Assembly (NCBI GenBank): GCA_009783395.1
Contig: WRHA01000353.1
Span: 1-12,262, forward strand
From: Defluviitaleaceae bacterium
GTDB lineage: Bacteria > Bacillota > Clostridia > Lachnospirales > WQUN01
Reading direction: 5' to 3'
Length of the DNA stretch: 12,262 nt
Made by a program: the position numbers and the translations under genes. Shown here one piece after another: positions 510 through 7,696 of this stretch. The notes below the pieces were generated by a model. It saw only the letters and a program-made list of their open reading frames with translations. It made no database searches and was not told the origin of the DNA. Numbering within the stretch: position 1 is the stretch's first letter; each line of letters opens with the position of its first letter.

Positions 510-555
510 AAAAAAAGCCTGCGATCGGTTTTAAATCGGTCACAGGCTTTTTTTT
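510..555 (+). terminator. strong intrinsic terminator, probably bidirectional
   Basis: An A-run and AAGCCTG on the left pair with CAGGCTT and a T-run on the right. Inside one C/A mismatch the stem continues as GATCGGTT with AATCGGTC (one G-T pair in each direction) around a 3-base loop. The A-run before and T-run after make it able to stop transcription from either side. It closes the broken gene on its left and insulates the c-di-GMP operon on its right. Confidence 0.9.
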
Positions 556-696: not shown

Positions 697-725
697 TTGC
701 CCTAAGCGCGGATTTTGTATAAAAT
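697..725 (+). promoter_or_regulatory. sigma-A-type promoter of the PilZ/HD-GYP/kinase operon
   Basis: The -35 box TTGCCC (697-702) and the -10 box TAAAAT (720-725) are separated by 17 bp. Transcription would start near 732, giving a leader of about 27 bases before the TTG start at 759. That leader is too short to hold a c-di-GMP riboswitch. No operator is recognisable. A Shine-Dalgarno AGGGGAGG at 743-750 follows. Confidence 0.6.
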
Positions 726-758: not shown

Positions 759-1418
759 TTGTACATCCACCAAGTTCCGCGAGGCACAAAATTTAGCTTC
801 AAATTTGATGAAACCACGACAATCGAGGGCACTTTTGACGGAAACATTGATCATTTGGCCTATAAAGTCTTTTGCCCGGAAATTGCACGAAACGCCGATT
901 ATTATGCCGAAATGGAACCCGAAACAGAGTTTTTTCACAACGGGAGTTTTTGGAACTTCACGTCGCTGCTTATGGGATTAAGCACCAAGCGCGACGCAAT
1001 CCAGGAATCGATTGAGCTTAAGGTAATCACCCCGATTAAGGAAACAAAACAGCGCATCGATTTCCGTATTCAACTCAATATGAAAATAACCCTGCACAAT
1101 TTTATTGACGACCCCAGTATGCTTTATGCGGGCGGATGGGTTTGCGAGGCTCTTACCGACGACATAAGCAAGAGCGGAGTGCGGATTTTTTCCGATTATA
1201 ATCTCACCGAGCCTTTGGGTACGGCATTTACGCTGGAATTTACGCTTAAAGACAATATTTACATGATTCCCGCAATTTTGATCCGAAACCAGCCAAACAC
1301 AACAACCCGCTCGTACCACTACGACCAGGGCTTCAGCTTCGACTTCAAAGACATGCAAGACAGGCAGGAAAAACTGATTTTAGACATCTTGGAGCATAAA
1401 ATTAAGCATAGGTTGTAA
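759..1418 (+). CDS. PilZ domain protein, YcgR-like c-di-GMP receptor
   Basis: This 219-residue soluble protein is a predicted c-di-GMP effector. The C-terminal half carries both halves of the PilZ binding signature: RxxxR (R99-I-D-F-R103) and (D/N)xSxxG (D135-I-S137-K-S-G140). The first ~90 residues form a separate beta-rich N-terminal domain in the place of the YcgR-type flagellar-brake/PilZN domain, although its sequence is diverged. The tail (about 195-219) is a charged helix. The start is TTG at 759, chosen because AGGGGAGG lies 8 bases upstream and no ATG fits. It is the first gene of the operon, 79 bases ahead of the REC/HD-GYP gene, so it most likely reads the c-di-GMP level set by that enzyme. 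The output is not visible in the window; YcgR-like proteins usually act on the flagellar motor or on polysaccharide synthesis. No transmembrane segment or signal peptide is seen. Confidence 0.85.
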   Translation: MYIHQVPRGTKFSFKFDETTTIEGTFDGNIDHLAYKVFCPEIARNADYYAEMEPETEFFHNGSFWNFTSLLMGLSTKRDAIQESIELKVITPIKETKQRIDFRIQLNMKITLHNFIDDPSMLYAGGWVCEALTDDISKSGVRIFSDYNLTEPLGTAFTLEFTLKDNIYMIPAILIRNQPNTTTRSYHYDQGFSFDFKDMQDRQEKLILDILEHKIKHRL

Positions 1419-1447
1419 TTGACCCCCGCCATGAAATATGTTACGTT
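1419..1447 (+). promoter_or_regulatory. weak possible promoter in the PilZ/HD-GYP gap
   Basis: A good -35 box, TTGACC (1419-1424), directly follows the PilZ stop codon. The matching position 17 bp downstream is only TACGTT (1442-1447), a poor -10. The rest of the 79-base gap is AT-rich and ends in a strong Shine-Dalgarno, CGGAGG (1487-1492). An internal promoter is possible but not well supported. Confidence 0.2.
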
Positions 1448-1497
1448 TATAAGACATATTTTTTGCGGTTCGCCTATTTTTTTATTCGGAGGCCGGG

Positions 1498-2544
1498 ATG
1501 AGAAAAACCATTTTTGTTGTCGACGACAACGATACAAACCTTTCAAAAGCCGAAGAATCATTAGAAGATATATATGACGTGATGACGATACCCTCCGGGG
1601 CTCGTCTTTTTGCCATATTGAAAAAAATAAAGCCAAACCTGATTCTTTTGGACATTGCGATGCCCGAAATGGACGGATTTCAGGTGCTTGAAATACTTAA
1701 AGCCGAAAAAGATTACAAAGACATCCCCGTCATCTTTCTAACAGGGCTGAGCGACCCCGACGTCGAATCGCGAGGCTTTGACAGCGGCGTTGTTGACTTT
1801 ATTGCAAAACCGTTTTCCACCCCGGTTTTGCTAAACCGTGTAAAACTGCACATTGACATAAACCAGCTCGTTCGCGAGCAAACAAAAAAGCTCGAAATGA
1901 ACCATCAAAACATGATATCCATTCTGGCAGAGGTCGTTGAAGACCGCGACTCCGGCACAGGCGGTCACATCACGCGCACAACAGAATATGTAAAAGTGCT
2001 TCTGCGAGAGATGCAAGAACAAGGCCTTTACGCCGACGAAATAAATGGCTGGGATTTGGAAATGGTAGGAATAAGCGCGACACTCCATGATGTCGGCAAA
2101 ATCGCCGTTTCCGATACCATTTTAAACAAACCGGGCAAGCTTACCGACGAGGAATTCGACCACATAAAAAATCATGCCTCAAAAGGTGCCGCCATCATCG
2201 ACCGTGTAATAAAGCGCACTGCCGTGGGCGACGACGATGAATTCTTGCTCCATGCCCGCGCATTTGCCGTAGCCCACCACGAACGCTGGGACGGAAGCGG
2301 ATACCCCTACGGGTTAAAGGAGCTTGAAATCCCGATTGAGGGACGCATAATGGCAGTTGCCGATGTTTACGACGCGCTTATCTCCGAGCGGCCGTACAAG
2401 CCCGTGTTCCCCCACGAAAAAGCCGTTGCAATTATAATGAAGGATGCCGGAAGGCATTTCGACCCAAAAATCGCCGAAATTTTCAACGAGATACACGAAA
2501 CCTTCAGAAGCGTGCAGATGACAATTCGTGATATAAAACATTAA
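1498..2544 (+). CDS. response regulator with HD-GYP domain, predicted c-di-GMP phosphodiesterase
   Basis: This 348-residue cytoplasmic protein has the RpfG-like REC + HD-GYP layout. The REC domain (1-120) is complete: acidic pair D9/D10, phosphoacceptor D52 in LLDIAMPEMDG, T82 and K104 in AKPF. The HD-GYP domain (about 135-345) shows E148/D149 ahead of TGGH157, the HD pair H197/D198 followed by K201, H226, HHERWDGSGYP (260-270), and VADVYDAL followed by ERPYKP. All hallmark catalytic and GYP residues are present, so it should hydrolyse c-di-GMP (to pGpG or GMP) when its receiver is phosphorylated. The ATG start is set by CGGAGG 5 bases upstream. It lies 12 bases before the first jelly-roll gene and in the same operon as a hybrid kinase that ends in an HPt domain, its likely phosphodonor. 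Confidence 0.93.
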   Translation: MRKTIFVVDDNDTNLSKAEESLEDIYDVMTIPSGARLFAILKKIKPNLILLDIAMPEMDGFQVLEILKAEKDYKDIPVIFLTGLSDPDVESRGFDSGVVDFIAKPFSTPVLLNRVKLHIDINQLVREQTKKLEMNHQNMISILAEVVEDRDSGTGGHITRTTEYVKVLLREMQEQGLYADEINGWDLEMVGISATLHDVGKIAVSDTILNKPGKLTDEEFDHIKNHASKGAAIIDRVIKRTAVGDDDEFLLHARAFAVAHHERWDGSGYPYGLKELEIPIEGRIMAVADVYDALISERPYKPVFPHEKAVAIIMKDAGRHFDPKIAEIFNEIHETFRSVQMTIRDIKH

Positions 2545-2556
2545 TGAGGTACACAT

Positions 2557-3528
2557 ATGGAGGTTCTGTTTGATCTGCAACAAGAGATTGACACGCTCGA
2601 TTTAAACTCATCGAATTTACTCGTGACGGTGGGAAACCAGCGTCCGACTTTGGCAATCAGCGTTGTTGATGACATAAAAACCATCTTGATAAAAGATCGC
2701 CAAGACCGGATCTCGGGGCTGGGAATCGATCTGAAAGAGCTGCCCAACCTTCGCGCCGGCGACAGAATTACCGTAACCGGTCGCATCCCGAGGGAATCTG
2801 CACCGGGAAGCTGGGGCGTCGCCCTTATCATCGAAGAGTCGGAAACAAGACGCGCCGAGGAATGTCAACTTGCCCAGCAAGCATCGCCGAAAATCTTGTT
2901 CGCGCTAAGCCATCTTTTGGGCAGTGCGGATCTTAACAGCCTTGTCATGGTGCAAACAACTCGCTGGGGTGCGGTCAACCCCGTTATGGACATCTATGTC
3001 GACAGTATTTTAATTTTGCGCGACAGCAACAATGCCTCCATCGAAGAAGACCCGCGCACTCTCGTCTATTCCCTGGATACAGACAAAAATCTCCGGCTTG
3101 GACGCTACGCAGAAAACTCGTTTGGGACGGGTATACTAACTCAGTCCGGCACCCCCGTTGTAACAATTTCTGAGAGCGACGGCGAAAAAAATATTTTTCT
3201 GAGCGAGCGCGGTAAAGAGTGGGACGGCGTGGATGTAAACCTGGCCTCGCTTAATCTTCTCACCGGCAATATGTATCAAATTGTCGCAAAGGGGCAACTG
3301 ACGGGGGACGCACCGAAAGATGCGCGCATAACCTTGATGGGTGTCCCCGGATACTCTTGGCGCGGCAGTACGAGCATGAAAAACAAAAAAGAATTTAAAC
3401 TTGTCCACACGCTTTCATATGCTGAGGTTGAGAAGTGGAAAACTGTTCGGATAACAACAAACGCATGGGGAGCATCCGTACCTTTTTATATTACCGACAT
3501 TGAGGTTAAAAGGTTGGGATTATTATGA
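2557..3528 (+). CDS. cytoplasmic protein with two CBM4/9-like jelly-roll modules (paralogue A)
   Basis: This 323-residue protein has no signal peptide or membrane segment. It contains two related beta-sandwich modules (about 15-155 and 165-320). Each has a G-(I/V)-D-(L/V) strand, L..G..(I/Y), an F.L.H.LS-like segment, a T.RWG or NAWGA turn (W137, W304) and a closing strand (MDIYVDSILI; FYITDIEV) resembling the end of CBM4/9 (PF02018-type) carbohydrate-binding domains. The family call rests on pattern only; the two-module architecture is visible in the sequence. It is paralogous to the gene at 6728 over its full length (shared motifs AGDRITVTGRI, EWDGVD, PGYSWRG, VEKWKTVRITTN). GAGGT lies 6 bases before the ATG. 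The stop overlaps the kinase start by 4 bases (ATGA), so the two are probably translationally coupled. A role as an intracellular ligand-binding partner of the kinase is inference. Confidence 0.75.
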   Translation: MEVLFDLQQEIDTLDLNSSNLLVTVGNQRPTLAISVVDDIKTILIKDRQDRISGLGIDLKELPNLRAGDRITVTGRIPRESAPGSWGVALIIEESETRRAEECQLAQQASPKILFALSHLLGSADLNSLVMVQTTRWGAVNPVMDIYVDSILILRDSNNASIEEDPRTLVYSLDTDKNLRLGRYAENSFGTGILTQSGTPVVTISESDGEKNIFLSERGKEWDGVDVNLASLNLLTGNMYQIVAKGQLTGDAPKDARITLMGVPGYSWRGSTSMKNKKEFKLVHTLSYAEVEKWKTVRITTNAWGASVPFYITDIEVKRLGLL

Positions 3529-6500
3529 GTATCAACGTTATCGATGTTAGTTTTCGGGAATTTTTTAACGCTATTCCGGCACCGTGCATATGCTTTAACG
3601 CCGAGTGCGAACCCTTCGACTGCAACCATGAACTGATGGGTTTGATTGGTGCGCCTTCCCGCGCCGACACTTTGGCATTTTTTAATGACGACGGACTTAA
3701 AAAAAATATCGCAAGCTCGGCGACGGCATTTACATATATGTGTGTAAAATTCGGCAGCACCGAAAAAATTACGCTGACGATGAACACAAAGCGGCTTAAA
3801 GACGGAATTATTATTGCGCACGCAAAAGAGCGTAATCTTGACGAGGTTCGCGGTCATTTGATGCTTAACTCAACCCCTATGGAAATAACCTTTTTTAACA
3901 GCAATCTGGATGTTGTTGACTGCAACATGGAGGCCGTTAAAATGTTCGGCTTTGTTGATAAATCCCATTATCTCGAAAATTTTATGCGGCTTATGCCACC
4001 GATTCAGCCAAACGGACGATCCTCGAAAAAATTAATCCGAGACTATATAAAGGAAGCAATCGACACAGGCTATTCGAAGCATGAATTTATGCGTCAAAAA
4101 ATTGACGGCTCGCTCATGCACACCGAAGCCTCTTTTTTGTGTACAAAACATGAAGACGAAGATGTAATAATTGTCTACTCGCGTGACCTGACGGATATTT
4201 ATGCAGCCGAGGAGCGCGCCCGCGAAGCTCGCGAAATGGCACAGGCGTTTTGGGATAATTCGCCCGTCGGCATGGAAATGTGGGACGAACAGCATCAAAT
4301 CATCGACTGCAATCGCCATGTTTATGAAATGTTCGGCTTCGTCGATAAAAATTCCTTCCTTACTCGTGTGAAGGATGAGTGGGCGGGCGATCACATCCAC
4401 CCGGTTTACCTCCAGCAAGCCCTCGAAGATGGAATGTTTCGATACGAGTGGGACTTTACCCGTACCGACGGAAAAAAATTGCCTTGCGAGATACAGCTTG
4501 TACGCATAGTGCGCAATTCTTTGCCGCAGGTTATGGCATATTTCTTTGATATGACAAGCATTACCAAGGCGATGGAGGCGGCGCGAGAGGCCGACATGCG
4601 AAACCAGATTATGCTTAACCACACGCCGATAGCGTGCTTCCTCGTTCGCGAAAATCTTACCGCCATTGACTGCAATAACAAGGCCGTCGAGCTGTTCGGT
4701 TTTGAAAATAAAGTCGACGCGTATATGCGCTATCGCGACATTTTTCCGCCGGGCAAGTTGCCGAAATCGCTGGACTGGATTGGCATATCCGAGCCGACCC
4801 GCTTCGAATTCGACCACAAGCACTCCTTGACCGATGAAATTATCCCGTGCGAAGTTACGATGAACTACATCGACTACCAGGGGCGTCCGGCTATCGCCTG
4901 CTTTATGAGCGACTTGCGCGAGCGCAACAGAATACTGTCCGAGCTAAAAAGCAAAGAACTCGCCGAAGAGGAATCGCGTGCAAAAAGCCAATTCCTCGCC
5001 CGCATGTCGCACGAAATACGGACGCCGCTTAACTCCATTATGGGTGTGGCGGATATACAGCTTCTCGGAAAAGAGCATCCCGCCGAAACAGAGGAAGCCT
5101 TTTTACAAATCCACTCATCCTCAAAAATTTTGCTTTCGATTATCAATGATATTTTAGACCTCTCAAAGGTCGAAGCCGGCAAAATGAGGATCCAAAACAA
5201 ACCGTATGAAATCGCCAGCATGATTTTTGATACGGTGCAGCTGAATATGATGCACATCGGAAGCAAGCCTATCAACTTCAACCTGATGGTTGACGAGGAT
5301 ATTCCGCAAATACTGATCGGCGACGAGCTTCGCATTAAACAGGTTTTAAACAACCTTCTGTCAAATGCATTTAAATACACCCGCGAGGGCGAGGTCAAAC
5401 TTTCGATTTCGGTGGAGCATGGTGCGGGTGACGATATGTCCCTTTTGGTTGAACTGCAAGACACGGGGCAGGGCATGACAAAAGATCAAATCGATTCGCT
5501 TTTTGAAAGCGAATACGTGCGCTTTAACGAGGAAAAAAACCGCATGATCGAAGGCACCGGCCTCGGCATGAACATCGCAAACAAGATGATTGAAATGATG
5601 AGCGGTGATATTACGGCCGAATCCGAGGTCGGCATAGGTACCACGTTCTTTATACGCTTGCCGCAAAAGTCTGGAAGCCAGCAAACCCTCGGTCCGGACA
5701 TCGTCGAGAATTTGCAAAACTTCCAGCTTTCACAGCGCGCTTTTCACAAGCGGCATCACTTCACATATGAGCATATGCCATATGGCAAGGTGCTTGTTGT
5801 TGATGACGTCGAGAGTAATTTATTCGTTGCCAAAGGGCTTCTTGTTCCCTATGGGCTTACCGTTGACACGGCAACCAGTGGATTTGAGGCACTGCACATG
5901 GTTAAAGAGGGCAAGACCTACGATATTATCTTCATGGATCATATGATGCCGGATTTAGACGGCATTGAAACCGCAAAAATGTTGCGCGACAGAGGTTATA
6001 ACGAACCCATTGTCGCGCTTACCGCAAATACGATTATCGGGCAGGCCGACCTTTTCATGGCCAACGGCTTTGCGGGCTTTATTTCAAAACCCATCGACGT
6101 TACTAAAATGAACGGCTACCTTATGACCTTGATTCGCGACAAACAATCGCCCGAGGTTCTCGCCTCCGCTAAAGCTTCTTCACCAAACCAGGTTGACCTT
6201 TCCGGCGCGCTTGTCGACTCCTTCTTGCGCGACGCAGAACGCTCGATCAGCATTCTTGATGTACTGCTTCACAACGAGAACTGGGGCGACGAAGAATACA
6301 AGCTTTACACGATTAACACGCACGGATTAAAATCCGCGCTCGCAAACGTCGGAAGAACACAGCTCTCCGGCATTGCGGGCAGCCTCGAGCAGGCCGGCCG
6401 AGACAAATCCGCCGAGCTTATTCTCGAACAAACAAAAAAATTCATCGAGGATTTGCGTGACGTTGTGACGGAGCTTTCTCCTAAAGAAGAAACTGAGTTT

Positions 6501-6725
6501 ACGGGCAAGGAGAACACAAAAAAGCTGCACGAAGGCCTGAAAAAAATCCAAGCCGCTTGCGACAAATACGATAAAAAAGTCGTGCGTGCCACGCTTGAAG
6601 GTTTAAACAAATCTAACTGGAGCAAGGAAACAAAGACGTTTTTGGGCGATATTGCTGCGCATCTGTTGCACAGCGATTTTGAAAAGATGGGCGAGGAGAT
6701 CGGGGAATATTTGAAGGGAGGGTAA
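3525..6725 (+). CDS. soluble hybrid histidine kinase: 4 PAS, HisKA, HATPase, REC, HPt
   Basis: This 1066-residue protein has no transmembrane segment. Four PAS-like domains (about 5-108, 112-232, 236-350, 353-470) each carry a D-C-N strand motif (D32, D132, D261, D382) followed by a conserved L/M-F-G-F-like turn; the first is the most diverged. A short coiled linker leads to HisKA, with phospho-acceptor H496 in SHEIRTPLNS. The ATPase has N614 (LLSNAFKYT), D646 in DTGQGM and GTGLGM from 677. The receiver has D760/D761, D805 in FMDHMMPDLDG, T833 and K855. The HPt domain has H933 in NTHGLKSALANVG. A charged helical tail (about 995-1066) follows. All catalytic residues of a His-Asp-His phosphorelay are present, ready to pass phosphate to an external receiver, most simply the REC/HD-GYP protein of the same operon. 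The PAS ligands are unknown. The start overlaps the previous stop (ATGA), and the next gene begins 2 bases after the stop. Confidence 0.95.
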   Translation: MSINVIDVSFREFFNAIPAPCICFNAECEPFDCNHELMGLIGAPSRADTLAFFNDDGLKKNIASSATAFTYMCVKFGSTEKITLTMNTKRLKDGIIIAHAKERNLDEVRGHLMLNSTPMEITFFNSNLDVVDCNMEAVKMFGFVDKSHYLENFMRLMPPIQPNGRSSKKLIRDYIKEAIDTGYSKHEFMRQKIDGSLMHTEASFLCTKHEDEDVIIVYSRDLTDIYAAEERAREAREMAQAFWDNSPVGMEMWDEQHQIIDCNRHVYEMFGFVDKNSFLTRVKDEWAGDHIHPVYLQQALEDGMFRYEWDFTRTDGKKLPCEIQLVRIVRNSLPQVMAYFFDMTSITKAMEAAREADMRNQIMLNHTPIACFLVRENLTAIDCNNKAVELFGFENKVDAYMRYRDIFPPGKLPKSLDWIGISEPTRFEFDHKHSLTDEIIPCEVTMNYIDYQGRPAIACFMSDLRERNRILSELKSKELAEEESRAKSQFLARMSHEIRTPLNSIMGVADIQLLGKEHPAETEEAFLQIHSSSKILLSIINDILDLSKVEAGKMRIQNKPYEIASMIFDTVQLNMMHIGSKPINFNLMVDEDIPQILIGDELRIKQVLNNLLSNAFKYTREGEVKLSISVEHGAGDDMSLLVELQDTGQGMTKDQIDSLFESEYVRFNEEKNRMIEGTGLGMNIANKMIEMMSGDITAESEVGIGTTFFIRLPQKSGSQQTLGPDIVENLQNFQLSQRAFHKRHHFTYEHMPYGKVLVVDDVESNLFVAKGLLVPYGLTVDTATSGFEALHMVKEGKTYDIIFMDHMMPDLDGIETAKMLRDRGYNEPIVALTANTIIGQADLFMANGFAGFISKPIDVTKMNGYLMTLIRDKQSPEVLASAKASSPNQVDLSGALVDSFLRDAERSISILDVLLHNENWGDEEYKLYTINTHGLKSALANVGRTQLSGIAGSLEQAGRDKSAELILEQTKKFIEDLRDVVTELSPKEETEFTGKENTKKLHEGLKKIQAACDKYDKKVVRATLEGLNKSNWSKETKTFLGDIAAHLLHSDFEKMGEEIGEYLKGG

Positions 6726-6727
6726 AT

Positions 6728-7696
6728 GTGCAAATTATATACGACTTCCAAGAAAGATATAAAAACTATACCGCAGGAAAATTTATCGAAGACGATTTTA
6801 TAACCATCCGGCACGACGCGGCGGCGAATTTTAATATCGCAGACATTGAAGACATTAAATCCCTTCAAATTACCGAACGCGAAAACCGCGAGGCCGGCAT
6901 TTATATCAAACTGCAAAGCATAGAAGGTTTGCTTCCGGGCGATAGGCTTACTATTACGGGACGCATTGGCGAAAACCCGCCTTCGAGTCCCAAGTGGAGC
7001 GTTGCTCTTTTTTGCGTTAGCGAAGGGCATTCGCCGCATTTGACACACCACCCGTCGCCGCAACCGATTTTTGCAATATCCTACATCGTTGAAGAAAAAG
7101 ATTTGAACGCCACCTTCACGGTTCACGCGATTTCATGGGGTTCGACAGAGCCGGACATGGATATTTACATCGACGATATAGTTATTACGCGGCATGACAC
7201 AGGCATGGTCGACGAAATTGACCCGCGCAAAGTAATTTACTCGCTTGCCGAGGATGAAAACATCACGCCGACTATCGTGGACTTGTATGACGAAAACGGC
7301 CCGAATGCGAACATTTTGCGAAACGGCGATTTGAGCGTGCGCGTGTTTAAGCACAACGGAGCCAACGCTATCCAAGCAAGCAATCGTGTAAAAGACTGGG
7401 ACGGCATTGACATTTGCATCGAAAACTTCAAGCTGCTCCCCGGCAACAGCTACAAGGTTTCGGTATGCATTCAATTGGACGAACCTGCACCGCTCGGCAC
7501 AATTTTTATGCTTCAGGGCATTCCGGGTTATGATTGGCGCGGAAACACCGTCGTTCAGAAAGAAACGGACTTTACACTCCACTACGTCCTAAGCCGTGTC
7601 GAAGTCGAAAAGTGGCACACCATTCGCATAACAACAAATCCCCCGGGGGCGTCGGTATCATTTTGTATTCACTCGATTGATATTGTGCGGATTTAA
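6728..7696 (+). CDS. cytoplasmic protein with two CBM4/9-like jelly-roll modules (paralogue B)
   Basis: This 322-residue protein is a paralogue of the gene at 2557, with the same length and module order. It has an N-terminal module with PGDRLTITGRI, ISWGSTEPDMDIYIDDIVI and DPRKVIYSLAEDENI, then a C-terminal module with DWDGIDI, LLPGNSYKVSV, GIPGYDWRGN and VEKWHTIRITTN. The 'MDIYIDDIVI' strand is especially like the end of CBM4/9 domains. There is no signal peptide. The GTG start at 6728 is chosen because GGGAGGG (6716-6722) lies 5 bases upstream; the overlapping ATG at 6726 is in another frame and soon stops. It is the last gene of the operon. Its final 39 bases are also the end of the opposing S41 peptidase gene. 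Divergence from paralogue A is large, which suggests an old duplication with different ligands or partners. The function is unknown. Confidence 0.75.
   Translation: MQIIYDFQERYKNYTAGKFIEDDFITIRHDAAANFNIADIEDIKSLQITERENREAGIYIKLQSIEGLLPGDRLTITGRIGENPPSSPKWSVALFCVSEGHSPHLTHHPSPQPIFAISYIVEEKDLNATFTVHAISWGSTEPDMDIYIDDIVITRHDTGMVDEIDPRKVIYSLAEDENITPTIVDLYDENGPNANILRNGDLSVRVFKHNGANAIQASNRVKDWDGIDICIENFKLLPGNSYKVSVCIQLDEPAPLGTIFMLQGIPGYDWRGNTVVQKETDFTLHYVLSRVEVEKWHTIRITTNPPGASVSFCIHSIDIVRI

Follow-up and report, generated by a model that had tools for sequence, protein, structure and literature searches.

Carbohydrate-binding modules (CBMs) of family 22 are parts of secreted fibre-degrading enzymes. 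RsgI anti-sigma factors also carry CBMs, and the hybrid two-component systems (HTCSs) of Bacteroides sense glycans via the periplasmic domain of a membrane hybrid histidine kinase. Here we examine a stretch of 12,262 nucleotides (nt) from a Defluviitaleaceae bacterium, hereafter the window, in which an operon of five genes (positions 759 to 7696) encodes a PilZ protein, a REC/HD-GYP protein, a hybrid histidine kinase and two predicted jelly-roll proteins, A and B, with no enzyme attached to either jelly-roll.

Among described counterparts are the CBM22 modules of GH10 xylanases from Clostridium thermocellum (1dyo, 1h6x and 1h6y) and of Xyn10C from Paenibacillus barcinonensis (4xuo, 4xun and 4xup). 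The jelly-rolls of the window resemble these modules in predicted fold, in tandem layout and in an R-x3-W motif of domain 2. Unlike them, they are free-standing, lack an export stretch and reside in a signalling operon; as they also score below the cut-off of Pfam CBM_4_9, we designate them 'CBM22-like' rather than CBM22. Bacteroides HTCSs share with the operon a hybrid histidine kinase and a proposed role in glycan sensing, but in the operon the part that resembles a glycan binder is a soluble protein of its own. The output half of the operon is the same as in other REC/HD-GYP regulators with PilZ receptors, with motifs intact, and only its pairing with CBM22-like proteins is unusual. Another likeness is to the RsgI factors of C. 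thermocellum, a clostridium that degrades fibre, in which substrate sensing is likewise coupled to a signalling protein; RsgI is reported to be transmembrane and to be cut in its membrane helix (PMC12203970), whereas the parts found here look soluble and the signal would be kinase-based. Neither a membrane stretch nor a sigma gene is present among the five operon genes.

We tentatively propose, as a reading that may well hold, that the operon provides a cytoplasmic glycan-sensing accessory to a soluble hybrid kinase with an HD-GYP/PilZ output through cyclic di-GMP (c-di-GMP). The basis for this is gene content, conservation, motifs, predicted fold, the absence of a hydrophobic export stretch and the recurrent linkage of jelly-roll and PAS genes; what we infer is the ligand, its binding in the cytoplasm, the control of the kinase, the contact between jelly-roll and PAS region, the direction of the phosphorelay and the flagellar output. 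A literature search by title and start of abstract, covering few subscription journals, returned no account of the five-gene set or of cytoplasmic CBM22 proteins with kinases; the initial annotation, made from the sequence alone, knew of no named system with these genes. As far as these searches show, the individual parts are of known kinds, and a CBM22-like companion of cytoplasmic kinases is undescribed within the literature searched. If the proposal is true, uncultured gut clostridia read imported sugars via a recycled xylan-binding fold coupled to c-di-GMP and flagella. It connects fibre breakdown with attachment or motility in the termite gut in a way that can be tested, and could lead to the ligand of a PAS kinase, which is usually harder to find than any other part.

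The operon and its predicted proteins

The five open reading frames (ORFs) all lie on the plus strand, with gaps of 79, 12, -4 and 2 nt, exactly in the order and with the spacing described initially. The domain calls made at that time agree with Pfam, motifs and structure models, the HPt domain being below cut-off and possessing its H-x-x-K motif. The genes, with protein lengths in amino acids (aa), are as follows.

759..1418, + strand: PilZ protein, 219 aa, TTG start, GGGGAGG ribosome site (Pfam, motifs)
1498..2544, + strand: REC and HD-GYP protein, 348 aa (Pfam, motifs)
2557..3528, + strand: jelly-roll A, tandem CBM22-like, 323 aa, without a hydrophobic export or membrane stretch (model, fold match)
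3525..6725, + strand: soluble hybrid histidine kinase, 1066 aa (Pfam, motifs, hydropathy)
Kinase residues: N-terminal segment 1-105; PAS at about 114-224, 240-344 and 363-463; HisKA 486-552; HATPase 599-715; REC 756-862; HPt-like 896-978 (Pfam, except for segment 1-105)
6728..7696, + strand: jelly-roll B, paralogue of A, 322 aa, GTG start (model, fold match)

A and B are paralogues of 35% identity. Their predicted models (mean pLDDT 87.9 for A and 75.2 for B) match the CBM22 beta-sandwich fold, B having been compared by VIA-align, so that the 'carbohydrate-binding-like' label given to both proteins can be sharpened to a predicted tandem CBM22-like fold. Members of the jelly-roll set A1 match CBM_4_9 at E <= 0.1 in 13 of 20 cases, the best at 2e-7. 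We take the xylan cleft residues of CBM22 to be R25, W53, Y103, Y134 and E138 (C. thermocellum numbering); the R-x3-W of domain 2 resembles R49/W53 of 1h6x, paired by motif and not by alignment. NCBIfam has no match for the jelly-rolls, nor for the PilZ protein.

The location of these proteins was assessed from 19-residue Kyte-Doolittle means, a hydropathy scan as distinct from a signal-peptide predictor. All five window proteins stay at or below 1.41 (the adjoining S41 ORF reaches 2.21), the highest mean among 31 free-standing jelly-rolls is 1.53, and 11 kinases reach at most 1.65, with no sign of the periplasmic sensor and membrane segment of a Bacteroides-type HTCS. The kinase and jelly-rolls therefore look cytoplasmic, in agreement with the earlier view that the jelly-rolls are intracellular. 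Of 12 other proteins bearing the domain, nine reach 1.68-2.48 within their first 60 residues, as secreted proteins and lipoproteins do; the remaining three are fusions to a MerR-type regulator (see below) and do not exceed 0.52. We consider it highly improbable that the jelly-rolls leave the cell by a route that needs no classical signal and act as glycan sensors at its surface: the strongly hydrophobic N-termini of the nine speak for this idea, but the low maxima of the jelly-rolls and kinases, and the presence of the domain in predicted DNA-binding proteins, argue against export.

In the kinase, the PAS, HisKA, HATPase and REC domains score above the Pfam cut-offs, the third PAS barely so (22.7 versus 22.6 bits); HPt scores 21.1 bits, under its cut-off of 24.6, yet has the H-x-x-K motif. 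The HisKA His, HATPase, REC Asp and HPt patterns together are those expected of a hybrid kinase with HPt. Motifs were checked over 16 kinases, namely 15 linked to jelly-rolls and that of genome G001: every one shows the His and receiver Asp patterns, all except that of genome G107 show H-x-x-K, and 12 show the N-box pattern, the exceptions being the four kinases of a second jelly-roll/kinase locus.

The output proteins have intact motifs. PilZ, presumably YcgR-like, scores 28.1 bits against a cut-off of 22.5, and the c-di-GMP receptor motifs R99-x3-R103 and D135-x-S137-x2-G140, which follow the RxxxR and (D/N)xSxxG patterns, are invariant in nine aligned sequences. The REC/HD-GYP protein scores 82.1 bits for REC and 103.5 for HD_5; its receiver Asp, HD and HHExWDGxGYP motifs are kept in 11 of 11 sequences, which predicts a phosphodiesterase. 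No diguanylate cyclase is encoded in the operon, and GGDEF matches occur elsewhere in the genomes (4 to 10 per genome, 12 genomes). Flagellin matches are present in 12 of 12 genomes searched. These hold 5-13 Flagellin_N matches each, many in open frames of 500-1286 aa, which is unusually many and unusually long.

Conservation of the operon and linkage to PAS proteins

The genome of the window is metagenome-assembled and incomplete (1.72 Mb, 71.5% complete), the window being its contig C353. It was compared within a genus set of 10 genomes, itself included, a family set of 38 and a profile search set of 96; order (392 genomes) and class (391 genomes) sets were evenly drawn from larger groups and searched at E 1e-20, with at most five candidates scored per genome. 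Of the nine other genus genomes, one is a Clostridiales bin and seven are Defluviitaleaceae bins, whose sample codes correspond to litter-, humus- or soil-feeding higher termites (PMC7024585).

The full five-gene order is kept in 7 of the 10 genus genomes (G000, G002, G003, G004, G005, G007 and G009), and the arrangement is therefore not due to chance. The G003 operon carries a third jelly-roll, B of G009 is interrupted by a contig end, and the PilZ gene of G004 was located by tblastn. In G006 and G008, PilZ, HD-GYP, kinase and B are present and A is absent.

The jelly-roll profile has matches in 28 of 96 genomes, with 32 full-length places. One of these, inside a 1906-aa GH10 protein, was removed to leave 31 free-standing copies; the tally omits an incomplete match where a contig ends (G009:C50:9-170) and the many other partial matches, most of them to a single domain. 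Twenty-two of the 31 lie in the same gene run as a PAS protein, which in 21 cases is a kinase. They comprise 16 copies in the operon, one in G029, four in the second jelly-roll/kinase pair (G000:C246, G004:C92, G008:C6 and G009:C301) and one on G008:C1 (L061:6410-8782), where the jelly-roll adjoins a 274-aa PAS-PAS-type protein that has no kinase transmitter and may be a shortened paralogue of the kinases found beside other copies. With 22 to 39 HisKA matches in each of five genomes, we estimate chance adjacency at a few per cent.

Among the 392 order genomes, only G107 has a full-length copy outside the family. Its locus (L094:8661-12789) consists of a 123-aa receiver gene, the jelly-roll, a 1004-aa PAS kinase and nagA, which overlaps the kinase end; a GlcNAc PTS gene lies upstream on the opposite strand. 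With 22 of 31 copies linked to a PAS protein and this one in another family, also beside a PAS kinase, the gene neighbourhoods are not the random ones by which the link proposed in the initial annotation would have fallen. Independent cases of linkage are nevertheless few (the operon, G029, the second pair, G008:C1 and G107), because 16 of the 22 linked copies belong to one orthologous operon. Besides the window's own, the 391 class genomes gave only single-domain matches, in open frames of 1034-1634 aa from seven genomes. Two protein searches, one of which scored 8000 candidates only, returned 21 and 32 relatives, counting that of the window itself, and those named were labelled Defluviitaleaceae or Clostridiales. 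No relative was found among viral contigs.

The domain also occurs in seven open frames of 561-641 aa, from 5 of the 38 family genomes, behind a MerR-type N-terminus.

MerR fusions to a CBM22-like domain: L027, L028, L030, L084, L085, L086, L087

A further region of the fusions has sub-threshold GyrI-like or similar matches, Pfam MerR was run on three of the fusions, and shorter open frames match only their N-terminal parts. As the MerR partner is predicted to bind DNA, the fusions place the domain in proteins predicted to be cytoplasmic, and they are candidate intracellular glycan-responsive regulators.

Proposed pathway and alternative explanations

In the pathway that we propose, an imported xylan-type oligosaccharide would be bound by jelly-roll A, B or both, and the loaded or empty jelly-roll would act on the N-terminal PAS region of the soluble kinase. 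Phosphate would flow along a His-Asp-His route within the kinase, by way of its receiver and HPt, and on to REC in the HD-GYP protein, whose phosphorylation would shift c-di-GMP turnover. GGDEF proteins encoded outside the operon would supply the c-di-GMP, and the PilZ protein would read it, probably slowing or releasing flagella.

Xylan-type oligosaccharides are plausible cytoplasmic ligands because GH10 matches are present in all 10 genus genomes (2 to 9 each; G107 has them too) and because one GH10 ORF of the window genome (364 aa) may be intracellular, its start lying only 8 residues ahead of the catalytic domain. Between a plant xylan-type ligand and a cell-wall fragment (the initial annotation had suggested a glycan or a cell-wall fragment), the former is somewhat better supported, given that same-profile domains occur in GH10 proteins. 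A broader reading, possible and held more loosely than the operon-level one, is that, in this bacterial group, the xylan-binding module of secreted xylanases moved to the cytoplasm and there took on the general task of sensing oligosaccharides within the cell: it partners PAS kinases steering c-di-GMP and motility, forms the MerR fusions and perhaps also serves a PAS chemoreceptor. Such a module would represent a class of cytoplasmic CBM-based signalling that seems to be undescribed in the literature searched.

Several observations in this and the next paragraph weigh against glycan sensing by a kinase accessory. A and B score 15.1 and 23.0 bits for CBM_4_9 (PF02018), below its cut-off of 25.9, and the jelly-roll profiles, run against the sequences of solved structures, found no CBM22, only chance matches, mostly to antibody chains; a GH10-protein domain of another bacterium, itself found by the jelly-roll profile, likewise has no solved relative by sequence. 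Domain 1 lacks the tryptophan of the R-x3-W motif, and some candidate cleft positions vary more: Q261, which is M in jelly-roll A of the window, is present in 31 of 32 cytoplasmic domains and 15 of 24 of the outside type, and W268 in 30 of 32 versus 14 of 24, the outside-type label being assigned from the locus and not from a signal check of each domain. G029, where a jelly-roll lies beside a kinase, has no GH10 match, and nagA of G107 keeps open amino sugars as an alternative ligand. The jelly-rolls might be exapted CBM folds that bind no sugar and act as protein-protein adaptors, for example by holding the kinase and its partners together, a possibility that we regard as somewhat unlikely. 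Their solubility, duplication and linkage to kinases would suit such adaptors, as would the loss of the motif tryptophan from domain 1 and the few candidate cleft residues held by the MerR fusions (R218 in 4/7, Q261 in 0/7, W268 in 3/7); moreover, the cytoplasm may contain few oligosaccharides of the length that a typical CBM cleft requires. However, domain 2 retains R218, W222 and R298 whether the copy is cytoplasmic or of the outside type, and some copies adjoin Gfo/Idh and GH2 genes.

Other observations concern the link to the kinase. G001 keeps PilZ, HD-GYP and kinase in a genome without any full-length jelly-roll, and the jelly-rolls are therefore an accessory of the signalling core; of the 'complete circuit' announced initially, the kinase, HD-GYP and PilZ domains stand, while the operon lacks a cyclase and G001 the jelly-rolls. 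Nine of the 31 copies lie outside any counted kinase or PAS gene run: three adjoin Gfo/Idh oxidoreductases, at two of these loci together with GH2, two adjoin DUF4097 genes, one an AP_endonuc_2 protein, one follows an MFS gene, and one has another setting. The remaining one of the nine (L056:5109-7693) is a jelly-roll 104 nt 5' of a PAS-MCP gene, in which the match to the MCP domain ends early. In G029 the PilZ gene is on a separate contig from the jelly-roll and kinase, and G107 is the only one of seven genomes of its family with the jelly-roll gene, which may reflect transfer or misbinning of the contig. An ordinary PAS hybrid kinase/HD-GYP/PilZ module with another PAS input, its jelly-rolls co-transcribed and acting elsewhere, for example in xylan catabolism, would account for G001 and for the Gfo/Idh and GH2 neighbours. 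We judge it distinctly unlikely, as linkage to PAS kinases recurs at different loci and in another family, the G008:C1 jelly-roll adjoins a PAS-PAS-type protein that has no transmitter, and A is paired with the N-terminal segment of the kinase within the genus.

This pairing is complete among aligned genus kinases: the segment is present in 7 of 7 operons having A and in none of the three lacking it, G008 retaining an apparent short remnant. As a hint of contact it is suggestive only, because the segment is missing from the kinase of G029, which has a jelly-roll at the A position, a single deletion could have removed A and segment together in G006 and G008, and the kinase tree leaves its deep branches unresolved. 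Residues 1-105 have no Pfam match and are PAS-like by eye only. A strict pairing rule was dropped for that lack of a Pfam match and for the departure of G029. The observation made in the initial annotation thus holds, and more strongly than the sequence alone could show. The interpretation offered there is as a whole partly supported, in outline; the tie of ligand state to kinase activity by the jelly-rolls is a putative part of it.

Flanking signals and the adjoining gene

Two candidate signals precede the operon.

517..555, no strand assigned: inverted repeat GCCTG...CAGGC with a T run after it, which may terminate the upstream unit (seen in sequence)
697..725, + strand: promoter-like element TTGCCC-N17-TAAAAT, 34 nt 5' of the PilZ start (alignment)

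Scans of the whole window gave no excess over shuffles for promoters (14 versus 15.5 expected) or terminators (20 versus 18.4), and the 517..555 repeat is absent from the list of the latter scan. Rfam has no match in the window at the gathering threshold. In 8 of the 9 genomes examined, a similar promoter-like element precedes the PilZ gene by 21-52 nt, according to a pattern that was drawn up after the alignment had been viewed and that 60 of 2000 shuffles match too. Downstream, the next ORF is convergent and encodes an S41 peptidase; its end is overlapped by that of jelly-roll B over 39 nt (7658-7696).

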